From Lytechinus variegatus (Eukaryota; Echinodermata; Echinoidea; Temnopleuroida; Toxopneustidae), in the NCBI RefSeq assembly GCF_018143015.1, contig NC_054751.1, positions 15,113,292 through 15,177,291 on the forward strand: DNA of 64,000 nucleotides, given 5' to 3'. The notes under the pieces were generated by a model. That model searched no databases. It saw nothing but the letters and a program-made list of their open reading frames with translations, and had not been told where the DNA came from. Position numbers and translations under genes: made by a program. Shown piece after piece: positions 6,186 through 58,769 of the stretch (within the stretch, counting starts at the first letter, position 1; each line of letters begins with the position of its first letter).

Positions 6186-6207
6186 GTACCCCCTGAACGG
6201 AGTTGAG

Positions 6208-27519: not shown

Positions 27520-29280
27520 ATGGAAGAAGTTAGTTTAGAAGAAGTCATCTTTTTGTGTGGACCTCCATTCAGTGTAAGCATGCATCTAGGCGCCAGCCTA
27601 GCCCTAGGCTAGGGCCCTATCGGGTTTTCCAAAACACGGTCGGGACTTCCTTCGGCTTCGCCGCGGCCGCGGCTTCTGACTAAGGGTGGGGGGGGGGGTT
27701 TGGTGTCCGGACTTTTTATATTTTTGAAACCTTTTTTTTGTCTCCGGATTACACTATGAATATAAATTGGCATGCCATTATCGTGATATTGGGAACCAGC
27801 GTTCACTTCATAGTCAGCAGCGCTTTATTCACTCAGTCACACGCACGGTTCCCCATCATTCGCTTCATTTCCACCTCCATTCACTTTGACCTTTTTTGTA
27901 TGATGGGGTGTCCAAACTTCGCGCACTTTTCAAAAATATTCATCAGGCTTAATTTTGTCCACAAATTATTCATAATTTATACAAAACCAATTCAAGAAAT
28001 AGTAACCACATTGACGGCAAGATCGTAAACTATAAAATCATGGACGAAAATGTAAAGTAGGTCACTGGGTTTCGCCGGTATGGCGATCTCAAAATTCTAT
28101 TCCGATCGGCGAATGCGGGCTGTGCTGGAAAACCGTTCAGAAAAAGTGTGACCTAACTTCGCGCACCAAAGCTTTTGTGGAGATTTAACAAAGACTCAAG
28201 CTCAAAAAGTGAAATATTTATATCAGATTGATGGCAAAATGCTATGGAATCGGTTAGTACCACATTTAACTCACATTTTTTATGATTTCTGCTTGTAAAA
28301 TGGTGATATCGTGATGCTTGTTGCTTTCTTCAAAACGGGCGCTAACGGTGACAAATTTGCCATCTTTTGCCAATATTTTCATGAATACTGGACTAATCCT
28401 AAAGAAACTTTCAGCGAAGGGTAATTTTAGGTCGCTTTTCACATTGAGGATGTCAGGTTTTAAGGATATTGGCTAGTTTTGGAGATAATGACCGTCCGCG
28501 AAGTTTGGACACGCGCGAAGTTTGGACTCACTGCCATACACAAGTGCGCGTACACAAATCTACGAGTGGTTCCCAAAACCACGATTTGGCCTATAAATTC
28601 AATATTTTTGTCATCCTCTATTTTGTTCTCAATAATATTTCCTAACATTTTGTATTAATAATTGCTAAAACTTCGCTTGTAAATTTTGCCAAATGACTTT
28701 CTAAAATTGATCGTCCGGACACACAACAACTGGGTAGGCCTATACCACCAAGGATACTTAGGGAAGTTTCTGAATGTAGGCACGTTATGCCTCTGTATTC
28801 AGTTCTAGGTTTTCCTCAAGATGGCTGGCTCACTTCCGGGAACAGGGCTTTCGTAGTCAAATTATTGGCTCATTTTTCCAGCATCTATCTATCTAGGGCA
28901 GCTTCAAAACTACACATGGGGCAGTGACAACATCATTATTTAGGCTATTCCATGTCTTACGTATTCTAACATGAAAAGAATTCCTATATTTATGGGTCTT
29001 TGTCCTTGGTATGAACATTTTTTTTTACTGTGACCTCTGGTGTGTTTCCTAATACTATATTTTTCTTGTACATTAAGTTTTGTACATTGATCATAAAGTG
29101 TTTATATGTTTCAATCATATCACCCCTAACTCTTGGATACGCCAGAGTTGGGATTTTTAACTGTTTTAGTTGTTGTGGATAGGAAAGCTTCCTTAATTCA
29201 CGGACTAATTTTGTTGCCCTTCTTTTTACGTTCTCTTATGCATGTATATGTTTCTTCAGTACAGGGTACCTCACAGCGTG

Positions 29281-29341
<61 letters not shown>

Positions 29342-32300
29342 TCAACTTGTGGTCGGACAAGAGACTTATAATAAGATATATAACAAAGCAAAGTTATCTT
29401 TGTCTAGATAAACAAAAGTTCATCTGATCAAGCCCATAAGCCTGTAGGCCTTGTTTATCTTTGATTGCATGTTTTCTTCAAAGCTGAGTTTATCATCAAT
29501 TACAACACCCAAGTCCCTTTCGGAGGTGTAATACATGCTCAAGCGCATCATTCATAATGTTAGGCCTACAAATATATCTATCGAGAATAATACCTTAATA
29601 TTAATCCTGTGCAATCTGGAATTATTTCATGAGAATTTTTGTGACTAAAATTGTCTTTGAAATGATACTTGAAGAAAAGATGCAAAATAGACTTCGAAAA
29701 AAGATGAGAGTATCGGCCTGATGCATAGTTAAAAGTTTGTCGGTGAAACAGTTCCATGCATACCCTCATGAATCTACAAGTTAACAAATGGGTCAATGTT
29801 GTCACATCCCACCCACCTGACATGAATTTCAGAGATGCCAACCCTCCCGATTTCATCGGGAGGCTCCCGAAAATTCATCCCAACTCCCGCCCTTACGATT
29901 ACCATCCTTATCCTCCCGAAATTACGATTTTTTTGCATTGATCAAATTGGTTTGGAAGGACATGTATCGTCTGCTAACTTTAGCATGTCGTAACTCCATT
30001 ACGTTCGCTGCTACTAAATTCTGTGTGAAAAGTAGACAAATAAGGAGCAGCGAAAAGCTGGTGCATGTGATATGCCCAACGGGAATCCACTGTGCACCAG
30101 GCCGGTAGGCCCGGCTAGCTTCGCGAGGCGTGTACGCTCGCGGCCACTGGATTTGTTGAGTCGTGCGGTGGAATATCGGTGTGTGATTTCGGCGTCTTGA
30201 TGGGTTGATAATGACACGAAATGGCGGAAAATCAACAAAAGAAGACCAAGAAATGGTCTCAGAAGTATAAGACTGAATACAGTCTCCAGTACCTGTGTGT
30301 TCGGAAGTCGGAAAGAGGAATTTACCATGCATTTTGCGCAATTTGCAGCGTGGACATTTCAGTTAAGCAGGGAGGTCGTACCGGTACTACGTCGTGATGA
30401 TTCGGAAGCACTTTCGTTCGGGAGCAAACGGCATATAGGCCTACGGACATTGCGATGACAAGATCTTCGAGCTCCACTAGCTAGTAGTACCCTGTCGTCT
30501 TTATTTCACCAAGCAAGGGACCAGCGCTAAGCTTTTCTTACTGGATTTATAGTGGAACATAACCTGCCTATAGCCGATAGTGATAATTCCTCATTATTAT
30601 TGTTGAACAGTTACTTCTTTTGTCCCCTCATTTTTTTTACATGTAAAAATGCATATTTTTTATGTTAAAAAAGTGGGAACAATGTTTATTTAAAAACATG
30701 TGAAATGCCCCAAATAAGGGTCAGATTGCACCAGAGAGCATCTAGAAACCCAGAGCTTCCAGGGCCCTAAGGCGGGCCCTGGACCCCGGCCGCAAGAGTC
30801 GACCGCTCCGCGCTCGAGATGTGCGCTATGCGCACATAATTTGGTGGCGGTTGCAAATCCTCCCTAATTCTGATTTCCAAAAGTTGGCATCTCTGGAATT
30901 TATATAGATCTATATTGATTCAAATTTTCTAAAAGTAGGTAAAATTCGAAATAAATAATGTGTTACTGAAACTTTTTTTTTCCTTCATATGTTAAACATT
31001 TTTATTTCATGTGGTAAAATAAAGTAAAAAAGGGGAAGTGGGGATATGACAAAAAAACCTGCATCGTGACCCCTTGCACGGAACTGTAGCTGTTTCCACA
31101 AAATATTGCCAAACTCCAAAATTTGATAAATTTGTTTTTGTCATCAGAATTTGATGAAATTTACAGTGTTTTGCTCATTGAATTCTAATGTATTATTTAT
31201 TAAGATATTCTTTTCCGCCTGGAGTACTGTACCCCTTTCTTTTTGCTTGCTGTCTATACCTAGGGTAAAACAAGTTACTATGAGCATCATTTGAAATCAT
31301 CCCATGAGAGAGTGTCTGCAAGCGAGTTCTACCAGGCCAATCCAAGCCGGGGCTTAAGGCATTTTGTCCTTCATCTTCTAAAGAACTTTGGAGAGGGCAT
31401 TCATGGCAAGGGTGTGGTGATCGATGACGAGAACTGGTCTAGGAAGACAAGACAGTCATGCATGCAGAGTATTAAAGCAAAGGTCAGTACTCAGTAGAGA
31501 ATTCAGAGAACCCTACCCACATCACTGCCGGATGTCTAGGATAAATGCTTATTGAGCCTATTGACTGAGAAAGATGTTTCTGTGAGTAAAACTTCAAGCA
31601 TTTCTAATGCATGTCAAAAGCTTTGGTAAAGGCTCAATGATTTGAATTATTTTGGATGATCACTCTAACATTCAAATCTTATAAGTTTAACAACCATTAT
31701 ACCATTGATTGATGCTCTGCCAAAATTTGAATTAAAACAGTTTTAGTGCCCGTTTTAGTATTGTCTGAGGTTAATACATTAAGAAAATGTGTTCATCCAT
31801 CGATCAATTGTAGAAAACTATTCTTCTGGTAAAGCATTCATGTATGTGAAGAGTCAAATAAATGCTTTAAATGCATAGACATCAAGGACCAATCTGATTT
31901 TTTTTAATGGGTCCAATAGCTCCCTTCCTGCAAGTTCATCTGCCATGTTTGCAAGCCTAGAGATGCCTTTGAATGTCTGTGGAGAAGAGAGTGGGTCTTG
32001 GCGGAATACTTCTCAAAGGGAGACAACAGACCTGGCCATTTCTGGTCCCTAGCTTCTACTGTGGACCTGTCCGACACTGAAGCCAGAATACACAAGTGGT
32101 TTCTTCACGAGAGTGGTGAGCATGTTGCAGGTTTAGATGCTTTGGATGAGAGTGAGGGATGGCACCAGATCAAAGAGATAGAGACCAGTCTTCAGCCAAG
32201 AACAAATTACAAGGTACAGTAGGATATGGTGGAAGATTGTGCTGAAAGTTTATGTTGAAATTGATAAAGTGAAGGCAGTCATTGCATTTTCTTTTGCATG

Positions 32301-35300
32301 ATTGGTTGTTGTTGCTATTGTTTTGTAATACCTTATAAATGTAGATCAGATGTTTTATAAATTAGGGGTCCAGAAGCATACAGCTGGTTCACTGTGTCAA
32401 TAGTACAGCCTGACTATTGTGAACTTGCCAATAGTATACAAGGATACCACTCTTTCAGGTTACAGATAACATGTTGGCTCATACTAGGTGATATTTCAGT
32501 CCCTTTTGAACCCTTAAAAGGTATCTATGCCCATCATTGGGGTCCCCCAGGGAAGCCTGCTTACAACCCTGCTGTTCACATTCCTATGTACTGACTTTTA
32601 AAAAAATCCTCAGTGATGCCCATTTTAAACTCGAGGGAGGAAGTTCATCCATGGGCTAATGAAATTGTTTGTTGGTGATAATGGTGATTGGGATGGAAAT
32701 GATATTGATGACGATGATGATAATTGTGATGACAAAATGGATGCTGATGATCATGATGACTGATGAATATCGATAGCAATGAAAATGATGGTGATGATGA
32801 TAGCGATAGTGTTGGTGATGAAAATAAAGAAGATGATAATAGTGAGAATGATGATGATGATCACGATAATTATGAAGAATTATATTACCAAGAAAATAAT
32901 GGGGATGGTGATGATGATAGTGATGATAGTAATGAAAATGATCTTAAAAGTGCAGATGATCACATCTTTTATCCTGACTTCATCCTCTTTTCAGTTTGAA
33001 GTACCTGCTGTATTTTTAGATTGGCAGGCTTTGATGGGAAACTCTACCAATCAACTTGTTGAAGCTCTTAAGATATGGAAATATAAAACGTTATGTGGTA
33101 GAGTCATTGTGCTAGCAACAGATACAGATGAGGGTGAGTTTACTTGTATTAACTCTTTACAATGCTTAACCCAAAGGACATCCATGGATGTGGATGCTAT
33201 ATTGACTAACCTCGACCCCCCTCTCATTGTGCTTTTTTTTCTCTCTTTTTTTACCCCCATTAAGGAATGACCTTGCCTTTGACCCTAATTCTCCGGGGGG
33301 GGGGGGGCATAATGGCCCCCTGCCCCTTGACAATTTTTGTGATATATCTGCTGCGCAAATTTTTTTGACCTCACCGCTCTCTGACTTTTTACTTTCAAGT
33401 CGTGCAAATTTTGAGACCAAATTTATGACACTCGGGTACGAGGTTACGACATTATGCAACATTAGGTAAGTGCATGTCAGACCCAAAATTGCTCATAAAC
33501 ATGATTTCATGTACAAATCCAATGCAAATTGTGTATTTAGCAAAAATTCATAAATGTATCATTTCTAATTTTACTAATTAAGTTTAATTAATTTTGTCTT
33601 GTTTATGATCAGTATTAAGTCTGTAACGATTTCCGTGGAAAAAACAAAGAAAAACATATGAAAATAAAAAAAATAAAATTCATAAGAAATCGGTCTTGGT
33701 ACCAGAATTTTTTCATTCAAAATTATTAGAAATGCTATAAAGAATATTCTCACAAAAAATAGCATTCTTGGACCTTTATTTAGTAAATCAGAGCAAAAAG
33801 TATGATTTCATAAATAAATTAACATAATATATCCATATAAAATATATGAATTCTGTGAAATTTACCAATGCAACTACGTAGATTGCTTCATTATTTACCA
33901 TTATGCAAATTTTTGTTGTAATCGCGCAATCCGCTGCCGAGATAATAAGGGGGGCCATAATGGTCTCCCCCCGGAATGAATCAAAATACCCCAGGAGATT
34001 TAAGGTTAAATATAGAAAAGATTATGCTATATAAAAGAGGAATGATGTTATTAAATTATTGGAATTTAGGCTTGTCCAGCATGCCCAAGGAATGGCTGCT
34101 CAGTAGATGTGTGGTGATAAGAAATTTTAGAGTGATTCTATAGAGATTTGAAAGAGTAAGACAACATTGGGATATTCCTCTTCATTTCATGAAAGCAATT
34201 GAAAAACAACAATTAGTAATAATATAAAAATACTTCAGTGTGACCACTTATTTGCTACTTGTCTGAATTTGGGAAATCTATCAGTTGCCATTCTTGTTAA
34301 TTTGTTTTGGTGTTTCTGTGAAGTTGTTTTTCTTATATTTTAATTTTTCATATGGAGAGAGAAAGAGATAGTGATCAGGGGTGGTATTCTGAGGTCATTT
34401 TATCTTTAAAATATTTCATTTTATCTCTTAAAATGAAATTGGCATTCTGAGATGAGATTTTATCTCTCAGATAAAATTTTAGATTTTATCTTGCGTATAA
34501 ATTTTATCTTGCGTATCTACAGATGATACGCAACAACAATGCCTGCGTACACATACCCATTGCGTATCTGGCCATTGCAACGCAGATGATGTGCTTGCGC
34601 CCATGTTACTTTGAAGAAAAAATAAAATAAACTTAAAAGAGGGTAGAGGCTATTTTATCTCTGCGACATTGATTTCACCAATATTTCTAGGAGAAGTAAC
34701 CCCAAATGGCGACATGAAAATGAAGAAAAATTATATATTTAATGAGAATAACACCTTAACGTTGTTCCTGTACAATCAGAGAGTATTTCATAAGACTTTT
34801 CTTGACTAATATTGTCTTTGAAATGATGCTTGAAAAGATGGGATAAAGTCTTCGAAAAAAGATGAGAGTTTTGTCCTTTTTGTTAAAAAGAAATCTCCGT
34901 AAAGACGCGTAAGCGTATAGTGCAAGCGTATTTGAAGTCAATAAATTGACGCAATCTCACCCCTTTGCCACACCTGGTGGAATGGATTTTAATTGGTTGA
35001 GTGATATGAGAGAGCTATAAAAGCGCGTTTCTAATTGGATATTGATTAAAAAATAGGTGTGTCTTACAGAGATAAAATGAAGATAAAATGGTTCTCAGAA
35101 TACCAATTCGGAGAGATTTTAAGGGTATTTTATCTCACTGATTTTAACGGAGATAAAATATTTTATTTTATCTGAGATAAAATGGATCTCAGAATACCAC
35201 CCCTGAGCATAAGGGAAAAAAGTAGGTATTATACTGCATGCATTAAAAATATACATTCTTTGAAATGATCATGGACGGAAATCTAAGGGGGGATGTGTCC

Positions 35301-38300
35301 CCCATGCCCAAATAAGTAGGGGGACACAGTATGAAATGTCCCCCCTACTATTTTTGTCTCGCCTGCGAAGCAGAGTGAGACTATAGGCGCCGCTTTTCCG
35401 ACGCGACGGCGGCGGTGTCAACATCAAATCTTAACCTGAGGTTAAGTTTTTGAAATGACGTCATAACTTAGAAAGTATATGGACCTAGTTAATAAAACTT
35501 GGCCATAAGGTTAATCAAGTATCACTGAACATCCTGCATGAGTTTCACGTCACATGACCAAGGTCAAAGGTCATTTAGGGTCAATGAACTTGGCCAAATT
35601 GGGGATATCTGTTAAATTCCCATCATAACTTTGAAAGTTTATGGATCTGATTTATGAAACTTGGACATATTAGTAATCAAGCATCACTAAACATTTTGTG
35701 CAAGTTCATGATTAAGCTCAAAGGTCATTTAGGGTCAATGAACTTTGGCCGAATCGGGGGTATCTGTTGAATTACCATCATAACTTTGAAAGTTTATTGG
35801 TCTAGTTCATTAAACTTGGACATTAGAGTAATCAAGTATCACTGAACATCCTGTGCACATTTCAGGTCACGGAATTGGGTGTATCTGTTGAATTACCATC
35901 ATAACTTTGAAAGTTTATGGATCTGATTCATGAAACTTGTACATAAGAGTAATCAAGTATCACTGAGCATCCTGTTCGAGTTTCAGGTCACATGATAAAG
36001 GTCATGTAAGGTCAATGATTTTTGGCCATGTTGGGGTTTTTTGTTGAATAACCATCATATCTCTGTATGTTTATTGGTCTAGTTAATAAAAAGTGGACAT
36101 ATAGCCCAGTCATTTTCGCCCAAATTTTGACCAAACTTGGAACAAATTGCAACAGATTTTTTTTTATCACAATGCATTTCTGTAAGGTCCCTAGTACAAC
36201 ATACTAAAAGTCTCAAACTTTCCGAATATAGTCTGGTCAGTTAGCGGAATTATGTGGACACGGTGGACAAAAGCGTGATTTTTTCTCCAGACCTTTGTTT
36301 ATGTATAAGAATTAAGAATGGGGTATGCTCCAAAAAATCTGGCTGCAGGAACAGTGAAAAAAATGGGTGAAAATGTCAGAATTTATGAGTTCAGATTTGT
36401 CTGATATATAGACTAGCGCTAGTGCAAAACTCAATAGCAGTGCATTATTTTGCATTGGATTAGTTCTTGAATTCAGACCCTTTTTGAACAGATCTTCTGT
36501 TTGTCCTCGCACCTCAATGCACCAAATATCTGAATGAAGATGCTAACCAAGCCGAAGGGTGACGGTGGAGGGGGTTGAATGTTGGTGTGTATGTACATGT
36601 TTTGGTCTTGGGGGAAAGGTGTGCAAGACACATTTTTTGCATGTGTTGGAAATTGTGTTGCCATGGTAACAGTGTATTATTGCAAAAAATAAGGTAAAAA
36701 TCTTGCAGTTAGAACCACTTCCTGTTTTTAACCGATTCTCATGAAATTTGGCACACACATTGGTCTTGAGGTGAAGATGTCTAAGACACACTTTTGTGTG
36801 TCTTTCAGAAATCTTGTTGCCATGGTAACAACATATTACATGGTGAAAATTGGGAAAAAACTTACAATTCAAACTGCTTCATCAGTTTTCAATCAATTCT
36901 CATGAAATTTGGCACACACATTGTATTGAAGTAAAAATGTACAAGGCACTTTTTGTGTGTGTTTCCAAAATTGTGTTGTCATGGTAACAAAATATCATAT
37001 GGCAAATTTAGGTAAAAACTTGCAATTTTAACTACTTCATCAGTTTTGAACCAATTCTCGTGAAATTTGGTTCACACATTGGCCTTAGGGTAAAGATGTG
37101 CAAGAACCTTTGTTTTCTTTTGCATTTGGCAGAGAGTGCATTACCAGGGTAGCCACAAATGATAGCCAGAAATGTAGGAAAACTTATTGTGGATCAAACT
37201 TCTTCCCCTGTTTTTAGTCAGTGCTCATAAAAATTTGAAGAAATATTCATCTTAGGGTAAAGATCCATATTAAACTCTAAATGTCTTCTCTGCATTAAAA
37301 TGTGGGGGGCTTCATTAATATTTCTGGGTTTGGGGGGAAGGGGCAGGATTGGTCCTTTAAATCTGACATCAAAGAAGGTTAAAGGCAGTGGCCATTAGAA
37401 ACATAAAAATGATAAACACTCTTAAAAAACGCATCCCCTTAAGGGCATATAGGCTGGAGGTACACTGGGTGAATATGAAACCTTCCGCTGAAGCAGAGGA
37501 GTTCCAACACTGGCAAGCAAAACAAAATGTGTACCCCTTCTACATTCAACAGCTGATTTTCCAAACCTTAGTTCCACCTCCCCAAGATGTGCACCCCTTC
37601 CCATACCACTTTTAGTTCTACTTCCCCATGCTCAAACCAGTCTACACCTTTGTCCCTCAGGGGTCAATGCATTTTTAAAGCTAGACATTACTCTTTGACC
37701 TCATAAAAATGACCTCATAAAAATTACAGTTAAAGGATTATGACTAGGAACTTAACCCCCCCCCGAAAAAATAGGGGGCTGATATACTTTTTAGTAGAAA
37801 ATGCCCCCCCCCCCCTTCAAAGGTAAGAAGAGTCCTTTGCATTTCAGACCATTCATTTAAAGTTTAATGCATTCTGATTTGATAAAAAAAATTGTTTACA
37901 GTACCCAATTAACCATTGTTTATTTATATTCTCCTACTCAGTCTTTTATTCATATTCATATTCCGTTCCTACTCTTTCTTTTTAACTTTCACATCACTCT
38001 TGATTTTGAGCTTCACCATGTCATCTCCTTCTGTTTCCTGTCTCTAAGTATATTTTTTCTGACATATTTTAAAGTGTACCTTTAATCATGCAACTAATTA
38101 AAGAAATATAAATATATACAAAAATCTCTGCACTTGTTTTAGAAATTCACTTGCATATCCATGACTCGGTAACATACCATATCAAAAATATACCTATGTG
38201 CACAATAGATTTTAGCCTTATATTTTCTTTCATTTATTTTTTCAGTATATTTCTGTGACAGCCCCTGCTTCATGCTTCAAATAAAACATTGATTAATTGG

Positions 38301-41300
38301 AGGCTTTAAATATTTGAGGCTTTAAATTAATATGCTGAAGTGTAAAGGATTCCCCCCTTTTTTTTTTTGGGGGGGGGGTTAAGTTCTTAGTCGTTATAAT
38401 TTCATTTTAATCTTTATGTGGCAATTTTCTAAAGCCCCCCTCCCAAATAAAAAATGTAAGGGGTGTTTTTTAAGAGTGTTTAAGTTCCTCATGGTCATGG
38501 CCTTTAACCTTCTATATTTTTATGTTGTCAGTTTTTAAGGACCTTCTCCACCCCCCCCAAAAAAAGCCTATAAATATTATTGAAGGTGATTAATACCCTG
38601 CGCTATTATATGACGTTATAAAGGGGAATCAAACCCAAATAACACTTGTTTTTAGAGGAAAATGAAAAATCAGCCAAGTTTATAGGTCAAAGTTTGAAGT
38701 TTTGAACAATATCGGACAAACCATAACAAAGTTGTGAACATATTAAAGTTATAAACATTGGTAATCACTATACCCATGAAGACTTCAAATTGACCGCATA
38801 TGTGATGTCATTGTGATGTAAGAAGGCAAGAACTACTCTTCCATGTACTGGAATAATTAATTAGCTAAAATTTCTTTTTTTCAAAAGTTTTACTTCAAAT
38901 GATATCTTTCTTTCATGAGGACATAAAACATACTACCGGGTTTATATTACGGCCCCAATGGAATAGGGATTTAGGAGAAAACCAAAAATCATGATAACTA
39001 CTAGTCTTATGGGAAAGTTGTCCTTGTGGCCTCACCCCTTGTCATAATTTACTTATCCAGTTGCCAATTTGAATTCTACATACTAGTAGCCTTAGGGATC
39101 TTAATTTTAAAGCAGCCATAACTTTATTTTGCTTGTCCGATTTCTTTAACACTTTCATCATTCTTATTTTTCTCCTTTTCCATGCACACAACATTATGAC
39201 CAAGGCTTGATTCCCTTTTAATACTGAATATGTAGTTCAAATTGCAAGGTTTTTACCTAAATTTTGCCATATAATATGTTGTTCCCATGGCAACACAATT
39301 TTGGAAACACACACAAAAAGTGCCTTGTACATCTTTACTTCAATACCAATGTGTGTGCCAAATTTCATGAGAATTGATTGAAAACTGATGAAGCAGTTTG
39401 AATTGTAAGTTTTTTCCCAATTTTCACCATATAATATGTTGTTACCATGGCAACAAGATTTCTGAAAGACACACAAAAGTGTGTCTAAGACATCTTCACC
39501 TCAAGACCAATGTGTGTGCCAAATTTCATGAGAATCGGTTAAAAACAGAGGAAGTGGTTCTAACTGCAAGATTTTTACCTTATTTTTTGCAATAATACAC
39601 TGTTACCATGGCAACACAATTTCCAACACATGCAAAAAATGTGTCTTGCACACCTTTCCCCCAAGACCAAAACATGTACATACACACCAACATTCAACCC
39701 CCTCCACCGTCACCCTTCGGCTTGGTTAGCATCTTCATTCAGATATTTGGTGCATTGAGGTGCGAGGACAAACAGAAGATCTGTTCAAAAAGGGTCTGAA
39801 TTCAAGAACTAATCCAATGCAAAATAATGCACTGCTATTGAGTTTTGCACTAGCGCTAGTCTATATATCAGACAAATCTGAACTCATAAATTCTGACATT
39901 TTCACCCATTTTTTCACTGTTCCTGCAGCCAGATTTTTTGGAGCATACCCCATTCTTAATTCTTATACATAAACAAAGGTCTGGAGAAAAAATCATGCTT
40001 TTGTCCATCGTGTCCACAAGTAGGGCATTTTTGACGCTAACAGACCAGACTAATAGGGGAAAGGCATCTAATTTGCATAAATCCAAGATGGCTGCCAAAA
40101 TTAATTGATATGCCTTATCCTTAATATTTTTTGTACAGATAATGGAAAAATCTTGAAATGAATACGCAATTCACTATGATTAAGATATCAAAAATCGGTT
40201 GCAATCGTTTCCGGGACTGTCCGGTTCTTATTTTTCGAAAAATGTGAGAAATTATGCCAAAATTTTCGTGTTTTCGGTCAAAAATTTGCATGTGCATTGA
40301 AATCTTTCTGTTTTAACATTAGCATCAACAACTAATATAAAATATCAGCATTCGACAAGAAAGGGGATATTCAACGAAAAAATTGATATGCTTCATAACA
40401 GTATTAAAGGGGAATCCAGCCTTGGCCATAAAATGTTATGTTGGGAAGGAGAAAAATGAATTAAACAGAATGGTGAAAGTTTGAAAGAAATCGGACAAGC
40501 AATAAGAAAGTTATAGCCGCTTTAAAATTGAGATCACTAATACTATGTAGATTTCAAATTGGCAACTATGTAAGTAAATTATGACAAGGGGCAAGGACAA
40601 CTTTCCCATAGGCCATGTACTTTATTATCAGGGATTTGTGGTTTTCTCCTAAGTACCCATTTCCCTGGGGCAGTAATCTAAATATAACCCAGGTAGTATA
40701 TTGTATAGTATGTCCTCATGAAAGAAAAATATAATTTGAAATAAAACTTTTGGGAAAAATGACATTTTAGCCATAATATGTATTGGAGTACATGGAAGAG
40801 AAGTCCTTGCCTTACATCACTATGACATCCCATATGCGGCCAATTTGAAGTCTCCATGGGTATAGTGATTACCAATATTTACAACTTTTAAAAATTCATA
40901 ACTTTCTTGTTGTTTGTCGAATATTGTTCAAACTTTCACCTATCAACTTGTCTGATTTTTCTTTTCCTTATAAAAACAAGTTTTTATTTGGGTTGGATTC
41001 CCCTTTAATGTCTTAACTTGCTTAGATTAAGGGCAAATACATCCGAATGTATTATGCGATATTGCGATAAAGTGACACCAAAAACCAACCTCCGTGTCCA
41101 GTCAACCTTTTATATCGACTACAACGCGATCGCTTGGATGCATTTGAAGATAGTACAATAAACTAAATCGGTCTTGCCTCGCCTTTGTTGGTGTGACTAA
41201 CACGCGTAAATACAATGACGTCTAACGATGCAAAGGTGTATATTACTTAAATTGATATGTGGGCAAAGGGCTTTTTCTTCATTTGAAAGTAACTTTTATG

Positions 41301-44300
41301 TTAATGAAATTTCTTAGAAAAAGTTAGAGGATGCTTAATTGATCTGCATGCTGTATGCAATTACGTTCAAGAACATCACAGCATAGTCCCGCAATAGCTT
41401 GTCAAAGTTACCCCCTTATCCGTAGCTCAACTATTAAAAATATCGTGCTTTTTGGAGCCCCCAATGTGACAACGCGGTGTTTTGCTACAAAGAAAAAAAC
41501 TTTTATTGTCTAGAAATCACTTGGAGGCAAAAGAGCAGGCTTTTCTCTTTGAGTTACATATAAAGAAGTGATGGCACATCAAAGCCTACCCTTTCAGGGG
41601 TCTTCTGAAGTCACCAACCCCTTTTTGTATTTTGCTCATTTCTTGGAAAATTCGCACAAATTTTAGCTCCATTGAGGCAATAGGCATTTCCCCTTTGCAG
41701 TAAACCGATTTAATTGTTTTGTAAGCACTTGGGGATGGAAAAATAGATTTTCTTCTATCAGGTAAATTTAAAGAAGTGCTGGCACAGCAAAGTCTATCCC
41801 CTGCGGGGTTCGCTAAAGTCAATCACCCCTTTTCCATATTTTGCCAATTTATGGAAAAATCTATAAATCCGGAGCCCTCATTGAGGCAAAAAAGATGTTT
41901 CTGCTACAGTGTAAGCCACTTTTATTGTTTTAAAACCACTTGGAAACAAAGAGTACTCTTTTGTCTATGTGCTACGTATAAAGAGGTGCTGGCACATCAA
42001 AGCCTACATCCTTTAGGGAGCTGCTGAAATCACCCCACCCCTTAAGCGTATTTTACCCATTTCTTGTAAAATTTTGGAGCCCCAATGAGGTAAAAGGCGT
42101 TTCCCCCTTTGCAGTAGACCACTTTTATTCTTTGGAACCACTTGGAGATAACAAAATTAGATTTTCCTCCATCAGCTACATACAAAGAAGTGCTGGCACA
42201 GCAAACCCTACCTCTCAGGGGTTTGCCGAAGTCAACCATCCCTTTTCCATATTTTGCCTATTTATGGAAAAATCTATCAATTCGGAGCCCTCATTGATGC
42301 AAGAATGTTATATATATACACAACAAAAAAAGTAAGTCCCCCCTAAACAAACATCAATAATTTCCGAACCAATGCGAGTTTTTGATATATTTTTACATGA
42401 GCGTGTAGGTAATTTTATAAGCTACCCTATGAGTAAATGTTGTGGATGTATCTTACGTCATGCTTCAGTGAGCACCGTCAGAAGGCAAAAATGTCACTTT
42501 TCAAAAGTCACAAGCAAAATATCACGATTTTGATTCCATTGTATTGGAGCTAATTCCACATTCTCATCATGAAAACTAGTCAGAAGGCTTGGAAAGGGTA
42601 CTTTCTAAAAGACGATACAACTTTTTAAGCTAAATTTCACGGTTGAATAAACTCAAGTCCAAATTTGCTATAATTGGATTTTTACACATTTCTTTCAATA
42701 AAAAATGCTAGAATATGATGACAGTTATTTTGGGGAAGACTATCTCCAACAATATTCACTGTTTCACGGTTCAATGAACATTTATTGGAAACAAAAAATG
42801 CGATTTTCAAATATCGTAGGCAAGTATTGCTTCATTTTTCTAACTGAAAATGATCTTTTCTCAACTTTTTTGTTATGTTCATGACCAATTAACATGCTTC
42901 AATTATTCAAAGGTGTCAAATTAAACATTTACGCTTGAATGAACATGTGGAATGTGATTAGCTCTTTTTTACGTTATTGGAAAAACTGCAATTTGTAACT
43001 ATGGATATCTGTCACACAACTCCTTGCACAGTTCATTTGATTTGATTTTTATGAAAATCCCGATGTTTAATGCATCAGTGAGCACACAATATTCGAAAAT
43101 TATGCAAATGAGAAGAAAGTTCAAGGCCTTGGCCCCACTCTGTACCGAATCGAATGGTTATTTTGGTGTGCGCACATTTTGGATAGTGTTACTCTGAAGC
43201 CATGTGCGAAGTTTCATGAAATAACTGTTGGCAGAAGTAACAAAAACCGTCCATGAAACAAACCCTCATTTCATATTTGTTAAAATTTTGACTTCCTCTC
43301 TCATAGACTTGTGTACATTATGGGTGCATATGTTTAAGCATACGTAAACCCCTTATTCAATATGGTGGAACTTTTTTTCAAGACTGTCTTTAGCAATGTC
43401 GTTTGGCAGTAATGTTTATCAACCTATGGGCAGAATTCTGTGCAAAAATGAAATCGATTTGTTTGTTTATGGATGAGTGAGCACGCATTAAAGTGGGAAA
43501 ATTGGTATTTTCAATGTCACAGACTCATTTTAAAGGGTAATAAAGTGAATATTGGGGGCAAATTTGGTTTGAAAGGTGTCTTTAATTGCTGTTGTTTTTA
43601 TCATCCATCATTTCTATCACCAAACACTTTCCGAACTTTAGCCATTTCATGGTTGAGCGAGCACATTCGAAAACTTAGGAATGAATACTCTTTATACTGC
43701 ATAAATGTATTCTTTTCCTAACAATTTCTCAGGATCAGTTGAATGTATGGACGGATCAGTGGTGGATCCAGAATTTTAAATGGGGGAGGGGCCTATAATC
43801 GGGGGAGCCATCAACATTTTCAAATTTTAACATGATCTAACAAGTTGTAAAAGATAATACCCCCAAAACCCTATGATGACACGTCACAATACAGGGGCCG
43901 CAGAGCAGTTTTCAAAGTGGGGGGGGGGGGGCTGACCATGCCAAAAATCACAATCGTATAACATTTTTGTACTTGCTTATGGAAAAAAGTGGGGGGGGGG
44001 GGGCTGAAGCCCCCCAGCCCCCCCCCCCCCTTCAATACATCGTGTTCACTCAACCATGAACATACGATATCAAAATTTGGTCTGAAATGGTTAAATGATG
44101 TATAGTAAAACAGCATAACACTATAAAGTTCACCTAAAAACAATTTTTGCCCAACTTCGTATGTGCACAATCTGAAAAACGACTCTTGTGACTTTCAAAA
44201 ATGGTCATTTTTAATTCAATCTTTAATTACTCATGCATGACTCAACCGATCAATCTCATTTTTCCCCAGGAGTTGCTTAATGAGTGTATAAAACCACCCA

Positions 44301-47300
44301 TGAAATATCATATCTCAAAATAATTTGGTTCAAAAGTTACAGCAGTTTGATTTAGGGGGGACTTACTTTTTTTGTTGTGTATATATATATATAGCAAACC
44401 ACTTTCATTGTTTCGTAACCACTTGGAGATTTAAAAAAAAATCCTTTACATCAGCTACATAAGAAGTTCTGGCTCAGCAAAGCCTACCCCCTCAGGGGTT
44501 CCCTAAGTCTCCCCACCCTTTTTGCCTATTTTCCCCTCCTTTTATTTATAATTTATGGGGAAAATCTGCCAATTTGGAGCCCCTATTAAGGCAAAACGTT
44601 GTTTCTGCTTATAGCAAACTTCTTTCATTGTTTCGTAACCACTTGGAGATAAAAAAGTAGATTTTCCTCCATCAACTACAATAAAGAAGTGCTGGCTCAG
44701 CAAAGCCTATACCTCCCTTAGGGGTTCCCAAAGTCTCAAAATTGCAGTTTTTGACCCCCCCCCCCATTCGGGCAAAAGGCATTTCTGCTATATGGTTAAG
44801 TCACTTTTATTATTTGAAACTTAAAGATGAGTAGGTTTAGTCTATCAGCGCATCGACCCTTCCCTCTTCAGGGACTCCAAATTGACAGATTTTCCCATAA
44901 ATTGGCAAAATACGGCGCATCGACCCCTTCCCTCTTCAGGGGCTCCAAATTGACAGATTTTTCCCATAAATTGGCAAAATACGGAAAAAAGTGCTACTTT
45001 GGTATACAGTTAAATAGTAGTATAATAGGATGTGGCAGGTCTAATAGCTATACATCTTATTTTTCTCTTGAACTTTGAGATGGAGCAAGCAGAAAATGTC
45101 ATTATTTTGGTGCACAATGTCACGTGACTAGCATATGATAGTTTCCGTGCCTAGACCCTTTCATGTTAAACAATTAATACAGTCCAAACAGAATCGAATT
45201 TATGTATTTAATGTTAATAGTAACAATGTTCTTGTGGTATAAATCTTTGCTTACTGATATTTATGATACAGCGATAGTTTGAGGAAGTCAATGTTTATAG
45301 TATATCGAGGTCGGAATTGATTTGTAATCGGGTCTGAGTACATAGTATACACTGGCGTCGTCTGCTACGTAAACTTAATGAGCGAATATGACCAAAATTA
45401 ACCATTATGTTTATGCAAATTAGAACACTTTCCCCTATTCGGATTTTCTGGGACTTTTAGTATGGTCTTCTATGGACCCCAAAGAAACGTTCTGCATTGG
45501 AATAAATTCTGTTGCAATTTGTTCCAAGTGAAAATTTAAAATGACTGGACTAATAAGAGTAACCATGTATCACTGAACATCTTGTGCGAGTTAGAATAGT
45601 ATTCAAAGTCAGCACTGCTGCTATATTGAACCGCGTGATGCAGGTGAGATGGCCAGAGGCATTCCACTTGTTTATCTTTTATGATGGAAAATAATACATC
45701 ATTCAAAATCAAAATAAATCATGTATTTAGACTGAGATTATCTTATTTTTTTGGTGATATCCTTCTTTTTTTTTTGCTTGTCAAAAAGTATTTTGTTCCA
45801 AATCACCCCTGATATTTGGGTGATAATCTTTTTTTTTTTGCTTGTCAAATTTTCCAGCCCCTGCACCAAAGAGGGAAGTGACAAGTATGGGAACAACTGA
45901 GAGACAATAGACCAGTTCGTAGTTACTTCATAGGCAATTTTGGTCAAATGACCTTTCATTTCTTACATCATGATAGGCAGATTTCAAAGCAAGATATTAC
46001 GTAAGCTTGCCTTACATAGCAGGATGAAGAAATAGAATAGACCAGGTGACTAGAATAGCACACCAATGAACACTTAATGAAGGTATTTGTTGCATTCCTA
46101 CTTTGAATGCATATCTTAGCATGTTGCACAATGTACTTGACAAACTGAAATACCAGTCGTTCGTGGAAGCATTGTTGTTTTTTGTGGATGTAAATGAAAA
46201 CAACAATTCAAAAGAATATATGAATAATCAAGACATCAAAGTTGGTGCTTATCTCATTAGATTTTAAAGCACCATGTCACTTTAGTACAAATGACCTTCT
46301 TCTGATCATGCGTAGAATCTTTTGATCATGCGCAGAAAGGAACTACGAACTGGCTTATTTTGAACAGATGAGTTTTGAGAGCAATTTAAAACATTTGAAA
46401 TATTGAATATAAGAAATCGTTAAGGAAATGGTCCTTCTGAATTTGCACTCCACAGTATGTGATGACAAAGACTCCCAAGATTCAGACCCTGGTGATATCT
46501 TCAAATCAACCCTAAAAAAAATCCAAGCAAAGACAAAGGCCCTAGCAGGAGAACTAAGTGTACCAGTTTTCTATCTCATCATCAAGGAGCCTGCACAGAG
46601 TGGAAATTTCACCAAATCCCCCAATCCTGGTATCCTTTCTTTTCTGCAGCGCCTGCACCACATCGATATCCATCACCCAGGAACTGTGTTAATTTACCAG
46701 TCTAAAAGAAGCAGGGCTACCGAGTTTGCTCAAACCGGAATAAAGCAGTTTGCAGCCGGTTCGGTCTGCAGGAATCCTGAGGTGTTGGCGCATTGCCAAG
46801 GAGGGAGGGTCTCTGGCTCTGCCCATGAGTCAATTTTGGATTTTGATTATGTTTTAGAGAGCGAGGAACAGATTCCTAGTGTAATACCACACTTGAACGA
46901 TATTATCAGTGATGACGCTGATGATGTAAGAACTCATGTCGGGGAGGAGAGATGGGGAAGGATCCTGGGTGTCAGCTATAAGGACAAGGAGACCTTGAAA
47001 AGGTAAGCTGATGAGTTTAAATTAATTCTTAGTGATTTAAAGTTTGAGGTTGACAGTTTGTTCTGATGTCTGACTGATTATTACACTGGCCATAGCACGG
47101 GGCTGATGCTGGTGCTCTTTGGATGATTTGATGTTTGGTTAAACAGCCTGTGTTATTGCCAGAAAGATTGAATATTTTGAAGTGTACAATTAAAACTTGG
47201 GATTAGTCAAACCAACCATTAATTGTTATTCATCTTGATAAGCAGGTTTGGTGATTGTTATGATCTTGAAGTAGTCATAAGCTCTCAGATTCATGCACTG

Positions 47301-50300
47301 GTATATGTACAATATGTTTAATCAACATACTGAGATCTTAATTATGCCACAAAATTTACTGTTACTTATACAATGCTAATTCTGACACAAGGCTGACTAA
47401 CAATTTTGAATTAAGTACTAATCTCAGAATCCTTCTCACTCTTTATGAATATTTATGTTTTCAGATTCCAACAAGAGCACATGGCCAATGCCTCCCACAT
47501 TTCAGCTGAAGGGAGTAAAATGAGGGACATATCTGTGCAGGATGGAGTCAAGGGAGGGCGCTCTTCAATTCCAGTAAAGTGCAATGAACCTAGTAGTCAT
47601 CGAGAAGATGGCAGGAATGACGGAGCAGAGTCGAAGCACAGAACAGCACTACCATCATGGATGACACCAAAGAGAAGGAAGAATGAAGAGGAAAATGAAG
47701 ATCAAATAAATGCAGTCAACAAAAAGTAAATTGGGAATTATTATATTTTCATTGAAAGAGAGGGAATGCAGCAGTCATGCTGGCGATAAAACAATTATAG
47801 CCTGACAAATTTATTACCTTATTTCAATTTGACCTATCATCAGTTGGTTTTGAGTCAGTATCTTTTGTTTTTCAAGTGTGGGAAGTGGAAAATGATTGAT
47901 GTGTACAAAAATAGATTATGAAGGCTGTCTTGTTGATATAGGTAAATATGTTGACATTTTTTTTTGTTATTGTGAGAAAAGGAAGGTAAATGATGTCAAT
48001 GACGCCACCACACACCTTACAACTGTTCAAGATTTGATTTTGGAACAAATCGCATTTTGCTGATTTTCTGGAAATGTGAATTGAACATATCATTTTATTT
48101 ACTTATTTATATTACCAATTAAAAGAATACTAATATAACCATTTTGAAAGATTGCAAGCCTTTATTTTGGAGTAAAGGCCAAATTAGTTTCAAATCATAG
48201 CCAATCGTACGACTGCTATGACGTCATCACGACTAGATATTAAATTTGCTTTCATTCTAAGAAGGATGATTGATAGCATAGTCACAGATTTGAAAATAAG
48301 TATTCGTACAATGATTTCGAATATTACACAGTAAGATATTTAAAGTCTCAATATTAGCATCAAATTCTACTACATTTTATTCCAAAATTGAGTTGCAGAC
48401 CAATCGTAAGGTGTGTGGTCGCCTGTCGCCTTGAGGGAGCAACATACATACAAAAAGCAAATGCACAATGACAAACATATTGAAGGCAATTGCCTAAAAC
48501 AAAAACAAAGTTTTAAGGCACTTATTGAATGATTAAATTGTTGGGGATTGAGGATTGGGGATTGTATGAGGATTTTGTTCCATTCCATTGAGGGTGCAAC
48601 AGTGACTGTTCTATCTCCGGCCTGCTTTGTTTAGTTAGATATGTCAACATAAGGAGAAAGATTTCATTCCCTCACATGAACATTTCATGAATTATAAATG
48701 ATCCCACAAACAAAATTAAAGATGATAATTCTGGTTCCCTTTAAAAATCACGTTTATTTCAGATACGATGGATTGCCTAAAACCATTTATTGTATGACAG
48801 TAGCAGAGCTCAGAGATGTAGCACTGATGTTTCTTAATCAGGTATGGCTTTTGGGATCTTCTTTCCTGTTAACAATGGAATAAGAATATATCCTATAAGA
48901 ATTGACTAGAAAATTCTAGTCCTGTTGGAACAGGGTATTGTGTGTAAATTTTTGAAGAAAAAATATAACAGTTGGGGTATTTCACTAATCCATTGAAAGC
49001 TGAAAGTATCTTTAATCCAGCCAAACTTGACTTGGTTATGGATGATGTAGGATGGAGGCTCAAGATCTCTCTTAAATCCTATGAAAATGATGCAGATTTT
49101 TAATGTCCTGTCTCTTTGTATAATGTTTTTTATGAGTGATTCTAGCTCAGAGACTCTCAAATCCTTTGGGAGCTTGGCGTATCTCAAATCAAACCAATTT
49201 GGAGATGTTGATGATACCCTGTACCTTTGCCTAATTTCTTGTAGGATGGAGGCAGCGATGGAAGTTCACAATTTCTCTCAGATCCAACCGAACCCGATGA
49301 TGCAGGTGGGATTGTGGATGATGCCCTAGAAGATGAAAGGTCGGGGCAGTCTGATGAAGATGAGAATGTTGAGATGGTGGACAGAGACTCGGACCAGGGA
49401 ACAGCTGAAGGAAGTAGACGGAAGACATCTCTTCCGGGAGATGAGGATAGGGGAGTTTTGGGAGAGGATGGTGATGACCGGGATAGGAGGAAAGCGAAAC
49501 CAGGAAGTGGCGATGGCAGTCGAGATGATGGGGTCGCCAGCATCATCACGGATCTCTTCGTGGAAGAGAGAAGACACAGGAAGCCACCACCGAAAAAGAA
49601 GACAGTGTATGTTGATGAAACTAGTAATAGATGTAATGGAAGTTTTGACATGATGTTAATGTAAGGCCTCATGGCTGGCTGCATAACACAGAACTTAAGA
49701 AATTGCTTGTAGAACAAATTGTCATGATTGATTGCATTGATCACAATGTAAACTCGATCATGAAAATTATTTGTACATTCAGTTGTTGATGTTGAGCTTT
49801 GAGTTAAAGGACCAAGGGAGAGAGATACTACTGTGAAAAATGAAAAAAAAAAAAATGGTGAAAATCCATGATTGATTGTTGGAAATAGACATGGAATGAA
49901 ATACTCTGAAAATTTGTTTTGCCCAACTGATTGTGGGCCCGGCAGCCGCTGTGCAGCGCCAGATCGACGATGCTCTATCCCTTTAATCGTTGAACGCCAA
50001 ACAGAGTAGCAGCAACTACTATCTTTTAACGTCTTTTGGTCTGATGTGGCCGGGGTTTGAACCCCCAACCTCCCGGTTGTGAGATGGACGCTCTACAACT
50101 GAGCCAACACACCGGTCAAATACAGTCATTTCAGGGTCCTCTCACATTACGATGTTACCTCACAACATTTTCAATACCATTTCATGACCCTAAGGAAATA
50201 TTATTAACAAAAAATATTTACTTGTGTCAGGAACGGCTTTATTTTAAAAAGTTATTTTCAGTTTTGACCATTTTTAAAATGATGGGTCATGTTATCAGAT

Positions 50301-50729
50301 TTGGGGCAATGTAAGACAGAAGAGGGAGACTTTTGACATGCATAGCCAGAAGTGAAAACTAAAGATATTAAAAATTGGGACCCTCTTTTTTTCTAGCAAA
50401 ATCAACATTTTAGAATTGAGAGGGATATGCAGGGCCTGCTGGGAGAGCATTTGTCAAGAGCTGAAAGACGTTACTATTGTTATTATTTTTTTTAAAGCCT
50501 CTTAATTTACTATGTTACTATTGTTATTATTTATTTCCTTTTCTCATGACGTAGGAGGTCACCTTTCTCTACGTCGTCCACAATGCTTTGGTCAGATGAG
50601 GAGGAGGAGGAGTCCTACCAACCAGATACCATTAGTAAATCATCAACAAGGAATCCTCAAATCAGAGAAAAGTCAAGAGACAACAAACCACAGATTCAAG
50701 ACTTCTCCTTCTTGGATGAAATATTTTGA
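27520..50729 (+). CDS. Host gene: P-loop kinase-like + degenerate HAD-like domains with CYREN/MRI-like C-terminus, nine exons
   Basis: The predicted exons are 27520-27573, 31264-31482, 31935-32213, 32995-33133, 46456-47002, 47465-47725, 48763-48841, 49245-49606 and 50555-50729. All phases match, giving 704 aa. An in-frame stop at 27511 precedes the ATG. Residues 10-21 (IFLCGPPFSGKT) are a Walker A motif; VVIDDEN (69-75) and an Arg-rich lid (ECLWRREW, 104-111) resemble polynucleotide-kinase folds. Residues 185-340 follow a HAD/PNKP-phosphatase layout: AVFLDW, VIVLATDTDE, VPVFYLIIK, FTKSPNPG. The DxD nucleophile pair is not kept, so the domain is probably inactive. ALPSWMTPK (474-482), TIYCMTVAELRDVAL (507-521), an acidic linker and a C-terminal FSFLDEIF match the layout of CYREN/MRI (Ku-binding motif, core motif, tail). 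A role in DNA-end joining is inferred. The CYREN-like match is the firmest part; the HAD call is tentative. Confidence 0.75.
27910..28531. repeat. MITE-like repeat with GTCCAAACTTCGCGC ends
   Basis: GTCCAAACTTCGCGC at 27910 is inverted at 28517-28531. The phrase ACTTCGCGCA occurs again inside (28153), and a second GAAGTTTGGAC sits beside the right end. Confidence 0.5.
28930..29530 (-). pseudogene. CR1-like LINE reverse transcriptase C-terminal remnant
   Basis: Minus-strand pieces read ERDLGVVIDDKLSFEENM, KINKAYRLMGLIR, SLVRPQVEY and VKRRATKLVRELRKLSYPQQ, followed by PTLAYPRVRGDMIETYKHF. This is the standard order at the end of CR1/L2-clade reverse transcriptases. The reading frame is broken, and a (TA)n expansion sits where the conserved 'EYA.W.P' segment should be. 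Confidence 0.75.
29284..29338. repeat. (TA)n microsatellite
   Basis: About 55 bases of uninterrupted TA dinucleotide lie inside the CR1-like remnant. Confidence 0.95.
29830..30895. mobile_element. hAT-like non-autonomous element carrying a BED-finger piece
   Basis: The ends CAGAGATGCCAAC and GTTGGCATCTCTG are inverted. GAATTT flanks both sides directly (29824-29829 and 30896-30901), a 6-bp duplication (hAT elements usually make 8). The interior has a 58-codon BED-like frame but no catalytic domain. Confidence 0.7.
30221..30397 (+). pseudogene. BED-type zinc finger fragment of a hAT transposase
   Basis: The 58-aa frame begins MAENQQKKTKKWSQKYKTEY and contains YLCVRKSERGIYHAFCAICS with VDISVKQGG. 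This matches the first half of a BED finger (aromatic, then CxxC). The His pair that should follow is absent, so the finger is truncated. It may be an exon remnant of the parent transposase. Confidence 0.55.
32665..32965 (+). repeat. GAT-rich simple repeat in host gene intron 3
   Basis: About 300 bases are dominated by GATGAT, GATAAT and GAAAATGATGG variants. Apparent acidic or Met/Ile-rich reading frames here are products of the repeat. Confidence 0.85.
33290..33975. repeat. MITE-like repeat with GC-rich ends
   Basis: CCGGGGGG…GCATAATGGCCCCC at the left is inverted as GGGGGCCATAATGG…CCCCCCGG at the right. The interior is related to 12236-12790. Confidence 0.6.
34376..35205. mobile_element. 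MITE, 830 bp, hAT-like CAGGGGTG ends
   Basis: CAGGGGTGGTATTCTGAG and its inverse bound the unit; the arms repeat ATTTTATCT many times. A middle segment (34735-34890: CTTCGAAAAAAGATGAGAG and neighbours) is related to 29578-29740. No target duplication is obvious. Confidence 0.7.
36255..37037 (+). repeat. Inner inverted arm, left
   Basis: It is a near-identical inverse of 39237-40020. It is built of about four imperfect ~150-bp units containing CATGAAATTTGGCACACACA and GTTGCCATGGTAACA. Confidence 0.85.
37038..39236. other. Spacer between the inner inverted arms
   Basis: It contains a further inverted pair (about 37370-37470 and 38430-38520, AACACTCTTAAAAAACGC and GTTTTTTAAGAGTGTT), poly-C/poly-G runs and the first TTAA MITE (38622-39217). 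No gene is present. Confidence 0.5.
38622..39217. mobile_element. TTAA-type MITE, copy 1
   Basis: The ends AGGGGAATCAAACCC and the inverse GGCTTGATTCCCT mark a ~600-bp unit homologous, in inverted orientation, to 40408-41004. Confidence 0.65.
39237..40020 (-). repeat. Inner inverted arm, right
   Basis: It is the inverse of 36255-37037 at very high identity. Open frames seen on the two arms are mirror copies of the same repeat and are not genes. Confidence 0.85.
40408..41004. mobile_element. TTAA-type MITE, copy 2 (piggyBac- or Kolobok-like target)
   Basis: TTAA at 40404-40407 and 41005-41008 flanks AGGGGAATCC… and its inverse …GGTTGGATTCCCCT. TTAA duplications are known for piggyBac and Kolobok; the interior does not decide between them. 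Confidence 0.75.
41455..45000. repeat. Satellite-like tandem array, unit about 200-215 bp
   Basis: Units contain AAAGAAGTGCTGGCACAGCA, AAGCCTACCC, CCCCTTTTCCATATTTTGCC, GGAGCCCTCATTGAGGCAAA and CACTTTTATTGTTT. Several units lie at 41455-42305; the array resumes at 44395-45000 after a TA-flanked insertion. Divergence between units is clear, so it is not very young. Confidence 0.75.
42319..44381. mobile_element. TA-flanked element with CACAACAAAAAAAGTAAGT ends, non-coding
   Basis: The ends CACAACAAAAAAAGTAAGTC and CCCCCCTAAA are inverted at the right, and both flanks are TATATATA. It interrupts the 200-bp satellite. The phrase AGTGAGCAC or GAGCGAGCAC recurs inside (42472, 43075, 43476, 43656). 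No transposase is visible, so it is a non-autonomous Tc1/mariner-like candidate. A G-rich repeat copy (43895-44030) lies inside. Confidence 0.65.
45912..46353. mobile_element. MITE with CCAGTTCGTAGTT ends
   Basis: CCAGTTCGTAGTTAC at 45912 is inverted as GGAACTACGAACTGG at 46339-46353. It ends about 100 bases before exon 5 of the host gene. Confidence 0.6.
47726..48762 (+). other. Intron 6 of the host gene
   Basis: The donor is AAAAA|GTAAAT and the acceptor TTATTTCAG|ATAC. The stretch is AT-rich. An imperfect inverted pair around AGCCAATCGTACGA (48200) and CAGACCAATCGTAAG (48396) suggests a decayed MITE. Nothing else is recognised. Confidence 0.45.
49929..50125 (-). repeat. tRNA-derived SINE in host gene intron 8
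   Basis: On the minus strand an A box TGGCTCAGTTGTAGAGCG and a B box GGTTCAAACCCC are followed by AAGACGTTAAAAGATAGTAG, TTGCTGCTACTCTG and TTTGGCGTTCAACG. This body resembles the deeply conserved metazoan SINE domain (Nin/Meta type); that label is from memory. Confidence 0.75.
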
Positions 50730-51889
50730 AGAGGAGTGTAAGAAATGTAACTGATGTTTTACATTTTATTTTCTTTTGTATTGTATTGTTTTATACTCCA
50801 AAATGTCCCAAACATTTAAAAATTTGTTATCACATGTCTTTTGCAGGGATCAGTAAAGGGTATTTTTTTAGCAACCTGTGCTTGAAGGAGAATGAAACCT
50901 TTGGAACAAGATAGCTTTAGTGAAAACAGAAAAATCAAAGAAACAGATCAACGAAAGTTTGAGAAAAATCGGACAAATAATGAGGAAGTTATGAGCATTT
51001 GAATATTGTGATCATTAATGCTATGGAGATCCTCATATTGGCTGTGCAACAAAGATGTGTGATGTCACCACCGAAATGGAAATACGTCCCCATCCCCTTC
51101 TATTTCTTCCATTTCTACTTTCACGCTCCTCTCTTATTTCTCCCCTTTATCATCTCGATCTCCCTCTTTATTATTTTTCCTTTCTCTTTCATTTCTTCTT
51201 TCTCATCTCTCTCTCTCTCTTACCTTCCCTTTCTCTCTATCCCCTTATATCTCTCTTTTATTTCCTCTTGTATATCCCATCTACCTTATATTGAGCCCTC
51301 TTTTATCTCCCTCTCATCTCGCCTTTTCTCCTCACCTCTTTCTCATCCCTCGTCATTTCCCCCTTTCTCTCTGTCTCTCTCTTTCTCTTTGATCTTCCTC
51401 TTCTTTCCATCTCGTCGAATTGATTGTCTGTTTTTTTTTCTCTCTCCATCTTTACCATTTACCTTTCTCATTTCAAATTTCTCTATAAAAATTTTGAGTA
51501 AATATTCCCTTCCCTCCCTCTCATACTGTTCAATCACACATTCAGGGTGAAAAATTGAATAGAAGTTTGAGGACAAGAAGGTTGTTACTTTTAAATGAAG
51601 CCTTCAAAGTTGGACCCTCGTGTGCTCAGCCATGAAATGTCTACTAAGTACAGTGTATATAAAAATGGGCACAATAGAATTTGAATTCTTATGAAATTTT
51701 ATTTGGAAGAGCATGAATGTTGCACGACATGTATGCTTTCATATATACAAAACCAAATCAACTCTAACAAGTTTACTAATACAAATTAGAGCACAAATCA
51801 GAAAAGCATAGCAATGGTAATTGCATTTAAAAAGCTGTGGCACTTTACATTTCGCTTATTTTCACATACCAGTTATATGCATATCCTGG
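50730..51889. other. 3' flank of the host gene and spacer
   Basis: A stretch at about 50890-51065 (AGAATGAAACC, AAAATCGGACAAATAATGAG, GAAGTTATGAGCATTTG) resembles the common sea-urchin MITE interiors seen at 40450-40560. It is followed by the pyrimidine tract. No gene is recognised. Confidence 0.4.
51095..51475 (+). repeat. Long pyrimidine (T/C) tract
   Basis: About 380 bases are nearly all T and C on the plus strand with few purines. The apparent 183-codon frame is a translation of this low-complexity tract. Confidence 0.9.
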
Positions 51890-58655: not shown

Positions 58656-58769
58656 CTTGTGCCTGACTTGTTTTGGGACTACAAGTCGTTCACCTTTGAA
58701 GATTAGATCATCACTGACAGAAAGTTCATCTCTGAAACCAAAGTATGGGGTGAGTGACTGAGGAAGTTG

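Follow-up and report, generated by a model that had tools for sequence, protein, structure and literature searches.

A candidate nine-exon gene of the sea urchin Lytechinus variegatus that would join a PNK-type P-loop head to a CYREN-like tail

A stretch of 64,000 nucleotides from the sea urchin Lytechinus variegatus (contig NC_054751.1, positions 15,113,292 to 15,177,291; hereafter the window) carries, at 27520-50729 on the plus strand, a chain of nine coding exons that form a single open frame. This frame begins with a segment similar to the Pfam AAA_33 profile and ends with a tail containing two blocks similar to CYREN, a small Ku-binding regulator of end joining in vertebrates; Ku80 is encoded in the same genome. 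We regard it as about an even call that the chain is one gene for a 709-residue, Ku-docked accessory protein of end joining, in which a P-loop head of polynucleotide kinase (PNK) type is followed by an alpha/beta segment that is poorly resolved and then by a tail like that of CYREN. At a broken DNA end, the Ku-binding motif (KBM) in the tail of such a protein would dock into the vWA pocket of Ku80. The head, with Walker A kept but the Asp of the RD motif missing, would probably bind a nucleotide or the 5' end of the DNA; its role would be regulatory or end-binding, and it would not process ends as an enzyme. The original prediction had proposed a fusion of a PNK-like kinase, with a HAD-like middle, to a CYREN-like tail; the P-loop head and the CYREN-like tail are retained in one frame, and the HAD middle is not.

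Gene model and the splice over intron 4

Contig C12, one of 33 in a genome of 870 Mb, contains the window, and a translated search of this genome with the 709-residue protein returned nine matches, all of them inside the window. The nine exons are separated by eight introns with GT-AG borders, and their phases fit to give a single frame without an internal stop; the spliced chain of 2130 nt encodes 709 amino acids and a stop. The splicing of the nine exons bears out the exons and phases first proposed, and the open chain also stands, with its length corrected from 704 to 709 residues. A TGA lies in frame at 27511, nine bases 5' of the ATG at 27520. The expected motifs were located as well, namely a Walker A split by intron 1 into GPPFS and GKT, VVIDDEN at 31414, ALPSWMT at 47646 and TIYCMT at 48782. 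A codon-likelihood test favoured exons 3, 5 and 8 and was neutral for exons 1, 2, 4, 6, 7 and 9. Of the open noncoding stretches matched in length, none of 2506 scored as high as exon 3 and none of 786 as high as exon 8, whereas 21-33% of such open stretches scored as high as the neutral exons; no equally long open noncoding stretch was found for comparison with exon 5. Downstream, neither AATAAA nor ATTAAA occurs from the stop at 50729 to 56050 (5.3 kb, 50730-56050), against 165 such hexamers in the 64-kb window; this leaves the 3' end of the gene unexplained and counts against the model.

An alternative open frame of exon 9 was rejected, with a coding score of -7.0 versus 0.2 and no exon 8 donor seen in the phase it requires. 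It contains a KBM-like string, KTSPSWM (50698 onward), which misfits the exon 8 donor phase and is probably due to chance. Intron 8 holds a tRNA-like sequence recognized by eye (50040-50117, minus strand), possibly a short interspersed element, where ARAGORN called no tRNA.

A weak link of the chain is the splice over intron 4, which has to bridge 13.3 kb. An unlikely but substantial alternative is that two adjacent genes, one for a short P-loop protein (exons 1-4) and one CYREN-like (exons 5-9 or 6-9), have been misjoined over this intron. Just 5' of exons 5 and 6 stand in-frame ATGs, at 46428 and 47445 respectively, and seven AATAAA/ATTAAA hexamers fall within the 1.7 kb past the read-through stop of exon 4, the first at 33663, although these hexamers are frequent in the AT-rich window. 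Moreover, the HAD homology that would span the exon 4-5 junction is weak. However, the exon 4 donor, GTGAGT, has the phase required by exon 5, and the exon 5-6 and 6-7 borders are consensus-like as judged by eye. Of four weak matches to a phosphatase model, described below, two cross the exon 4-5 junction (residues 227-306 and 226-306), and the other two lie inside exon 5. None of the six open reading frames of at least 100 amino acids in intron 4 has a Pfam match, and repeats account for much of the intron. Among these is an inverted repeat with arms at 36253-36923 and 39347-40018, in which three blocks are 98-99% complementary and a further block, extending to 37018/39251, is complementary at 90%; it is a foldback-like insertion of recent date and makes intron 4 longer. 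The predicted splicing supports a single reading frame for head and tail, and from the splice borders and phases we infer that both belong to a single transcript.

The CYREN-like tail and its possible Ku80 partner

Residues 472-529 aligned with human CYREN at a score of 69, which was reached by none of 3000 shuffles of the tail and by one of 3000 shuffles of the whole protein; the human query was an author-supplied sequence, on which its block positions given below also rest. With Asp and Glu masked in the tail, one of 3000 shuffles scored as high. Two blocks, in the same order as in CYREN, carry the match: the KBM-like ALPSWMT and then TIYCMTVAELRDVAL, here called the YCM block. Taken alone, the first (LPSWMT) was equalled by 5 of 3000 shuffles, and the second, urchin KTIYCMTVAELRDVALMFL against human RTVYCMNEAEIVDVALGIL, by none of 3000. 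The blocks start at residues 480 and 511 in the urchin protein, 31 apart, and at 13 and 51 in human CYREN, 38 apart. Because a loose KBM-like pattern gave 14 rows across the window in all six frames (from 11 separate places, some of them interrupted by stops), such a match means little alone; the string in exon 6 gains weight because it lies 31 residues before the YCM block. Additionally, a mouse Mri guide RNA printed in PMC6995585 translates to LPSWMTA on the reverse strand, in a frame that we chose, compared with LPSWMT in the urchin.

The Pfam MRI profile (PF15325) scored human CYREN at 170.9 bits, in a match that begins inside the second block. When the urchin YCM block was grafted into the human protein, the score was 153.1 bits, compared with 135.4-138.8 bits for four shuffles of the block; the profile therefore credits the urchin block with about 15 bits.

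The tail looks disordered, and human CYREN-1 is described in PMC13276856 as a largely disordered protein of 157 amino acids. In CYREN/MRI (C7orf49, PF15325) and in the urchin tail alike, a KBM-like block is followed by a YCM...AE..DVAL block and then by an acidic stretch; the urchin blocks differ in ending a 709-residue protein, in the shifted Arg of the KBM and in an unsupported XLF-like C-terminus. The folded domains of APLF and WRN differ from those of the window protein, and we know of no YCM block in either. Both are larger repair proteins with a KBM according to PMC4831024, and in this respect they resemble the window protein with its KBM-like string.

Several results weigh against a CYREN relationship. 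In PMC4831024 the strict KBM core is R-x-x-P-x-W, whereas the urchin string reads R-x-x-x-P-x-W, its Arg shifted by one place. PF15325, the family profile with which the original prediction suggested checking the tail, gives no direct match to the urchin protein. Searching the genome with this profile gave no candidate, which need not mean absence, and searching it with human CYREN did not return the window but a single weak match on contig C17 (E 6.35). The hydrophobic C-terminus, scored as an XLF-like motif, was equalled by 987 of 3000 shuffles, and its graft into human CYREN reached 142.1 bits, compared with 139.8, 137.2 and 142.1 for three shuffles. By our own arithmetic, the pairwise CYREN score corresponds to about 5e-5 for this pair and to nearly 1 for a blind whole-proteome search. 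Since a Pfam match, the strict KBM core and the C-terminal motif are all lacking, the window protein is not classed as a member of the CYREN family. What survives of the tail as first described is the ALPSWMT and the YCM block in CYREN order, the hydrophobic C-terminus being no better than shuffles. A match of the tail to a POU-domain protein in a PDB sequence search (E 0.0058) was judged to be chance.

These results bear on a second and distinctly less probable alternative, in which the likeness to CYREN arose by chance, or by convergence among short motifs within an acidic tail, and the gene encodes an unrelated P-loop protein. The missing profile match, the search with human CYREN that bypassed the window, the abundance of loose KBM-like strings and the departure from the strict core all count in its favour. 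Nevertheless, it would have to account for two blocks in the same order at comparable distances, for a tail score that no shuffle of the tail equalled and for the bits that a vertebrate profile grants the grafted block.

The proposed partner is present. A Ku80 on contig C1 matches the human protein in its vWA exon (E 5e-12) and has a Leu aligned with human Leu68. Mutation of this human residue (L68R) lowers KBM recruitment to damage, as reported in PMC4831024. Taken together, the KBM-like motif and the Leu68 equivalent of urchin Ku80 suggest that the tail would bind Ku, and the window protein may work like CYREN in docking to it. Ku_N exons were also found at two places on contig C9 (29.86 and 31.56 Mb), representing either a duplication or assembly haplotigs.

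The P-loop head and the middle segment

The AAA_33 profile matched residues 9-105 in a 122-residue segment at 26.1 bits (E 1.2e-5), a 189-residue segment at 24.1 bits (E 5.1e-5) and the whole 709 residues at 20.4 bits (E 7e-4). AAA_22 likewise matched the head, more weakly. Beginning at position 1 of the profile, the AAA_33 match extends from exon 1 through exon 2 to its end in exon 3, and therefore supports the joining of these three exons. Among three relatives compared with the head, the kinase of urchin PNKP was closest (score 54, equalled by none of 2000 shuffles), followed by an N4BP2-like protein (48; 4 of 2000) and a T4-type Pnkp (39; 95 of 2000). Furthermore, hhalign aligned residues 1-189 with a phage Pnkp profile at a probability of 93.7. 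In a search with a profile built from 16 phage Pnkps, the P-loop part ranked first at 7.8 bits, the best of 1000 shuffles reaching 5.3; the 417-residue head obtained 5.1 bits, below one shuffle. Wider searches gave little: weak P-loop matches in PHROGs (best E 0.015), two tblastn matches in phages (E 1 and 10), no relative in a scan of viral_contigs with residues 1-531, and nothing credible for the head in a PDB sequence search (T-cell receptor chains, E 0.37-0.98). A PNK-type P-loop fold is a likely reading of the head, as predicted from its sequence.

The Asp of the RD motif serves as the catalytic general base in PNKP kinase. Where urchin PNKP and five aligned phage Pnkps have the RD motif, the head reads SASEF in two alignments, one of them by hhalign; the N4BP2-like protein also lacks the motif. 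The PNK-type kinase initially proposed is therefore kept in part: AAA_33 similarity and Walker A remain, but every AAA_33 score falls under the curated cut-off of 27 bits, a further point against the favoured composition, and the RD Asp is gone. The head is probably non-catalytic.

Contig C11 carries another gene, for a PNKP that has both domains in the usual order of phosphatase before kinase (its exons were read one at a time rather than as a full assembly), so the head is not the housekeeping enzyme. Of the three relatives tested, the P-loop kinase domain of PNKP is the one that the head most resembles; the window protein differs in placing the P-loop first and in lacking both the DxD pair and the RD Asp, and it is not classed as PNKP. 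With T4-type Pnkp it shares the order of a P-loop followed by a possible HAD-like segment, whereas in the 16-phage profile search the P-loop scored and the middle was not among the best 20 matches listed. Two more PNK3P-like loci were seen at C2:24.18 Mb and C2:31.34 Mb, with stops inside four of the six matched pieces, perhaps from intron read-in.

In the middle segment, helices alternate with strands as judged by eye. The sole NCBIfam model to score was TIGR01664 (DNA 3'-phosphatase), with E values of 0.089, 0.097, 0.10 and 0.12 in four of the six segments holding the region; it gave nothing for the two longest, the 418-residue head and a 228-residue segment. The two matches within exon 5 cover residues 252-306. 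Among the controls for the phosphatase models, one reversed sequence matched a different phosphatase model at E 0.0093, three shuffles gave nothing and urchin PNKP reached 1.8e-47. Pfam PNK3P did not match the window protein or its segments. An hhalign comparison of the HAD part scored 18.57, with 3 of 200 shuffles higher and in a register different from that of the TIGR01664 match, and neither a DxD pair nor FDxDGT was seen in the segment. AlphaFold2 modeling of exon 5 alone gave a mean predicted local distance difference test score of 35.5, and the order of helices and strands in it is at most suggestive. Given this weakness and inconsistency across TIGR01664, PNK3P, hhalign and the reversed control, the proposed HAD similarity is not upheld, and the idea of a degenerate phosphatase of HAD type stands as no more than a weak lead.

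It is very improbable that the head, tethered to Ku, processes ends as an active kinase (or kinase/phosphatase). Its intact Walker A, VVIDDEN strand, Arg-containing stretch in exon 3 and Glu39 near the missing RD Asp would speak for this; against it stand SASEF in place of RD, the like absence of RD from the N4BP2-like protein, a middle without visible FDxDGT and a two-domain PNKP elsewhere in the genome.

Neighboring features, origin and meaning

The features of the candidate gene are collected in Table 1.

Table 1. Coding exons and the long fourth intron of the candidate gene (window positions)
Feature	Positions	Strand	Content
Coding exon 1	27520..27573	+	aa 1-18; start codon, GPPFS half of Walker A
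Coding exon 2	31264..31482	+	aa 19-91; Walker A GKT 31264-31272, VVIDDEN 31414-31434
Coding exon 3	31920..32213	+	aa 92-189; second half of P-loop domain
Coding exon 4	32995..33133	+	aa 190-235 plus a single base of codon 236; PAVFLDWQAL ... GRVIVLATDTDE; donor GTGAGT, phase 1
Intron 4	33134..46455	+	13.3 kb, rich in repeats
Coding exon 5	46456..47002	+	aa 236-418, codons shared at both ends; alpha/beta segment
Coding exon 6	47465..47725	+	KBM-like RTALPSWMT 47640-47666, aa 477-485
Coding exon 7	48763..48841	+	CYREN-like block KTIYCMTVAELRDVALMFL 48779-48835, aa 511-529
Coding exon 8	49245..49606	+	acidic low-complexity linker; donor GTATGT, phase 2
Coding exon 9	50555..50729	+	acidic stretch, C-terminus QDFSFLDEIF, stop TGA 50727-50729

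Mobile and repetitive sequences surround the gene. Transposase-like open reading frames with TNP-like RNase H domains lie at 6145-8076 (plus strand), 10398-10835 (plus strand, below the family cut-off) and 51890-52630 (minus strand), and at 57696-60806 (minus strand) are retroelement frames that encode reverse transcriptase, RNase H and integrase domains. A tandem array at 52736-56048 comprises 9.0 copies of a 367-bp unit with 99% matches and sits within sequence of strong C excess on the plus strand. Elsewhere in the genome, bindin, a sea urchin sperm protein whose genes fit the sea urchin origin of the DNA, was found at two places on contig C13 (18.60 and 24.95 Mb; Pfam PF02084, E 4e-66), again through duplication or assembly haplotigs.

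As for the origin of CYREN, no account was found in the literature searched, a body of text with most subscription papers outside it. We tentatively propose, as a possibility we would not yet bet on, that in early deuterostomes CYREN was at first the tail by which a PNK-like DNA-end protein docked to Ku, that echinoids retain this fusion as a pseudo-enzyme tethered to Ku, and that in vertebrates only the tail survives, as a free microprotein. A linkage check came out negative: all 12 matches to a Nup192-family gene (NUP205 or NUP188, which were not distinguished) lie on contig C19 and the window on C12, NUP205 being a neighbour of human CYREN. An echinoderm relative of CYREN, if true, would place the protein before vertebrates, and its fusion to a PNK-like head, if true, would suggest a role of the ancestor at DNA ends. 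The tail also offers a directly testable candidate Ku80 ligand outside vertebrates.

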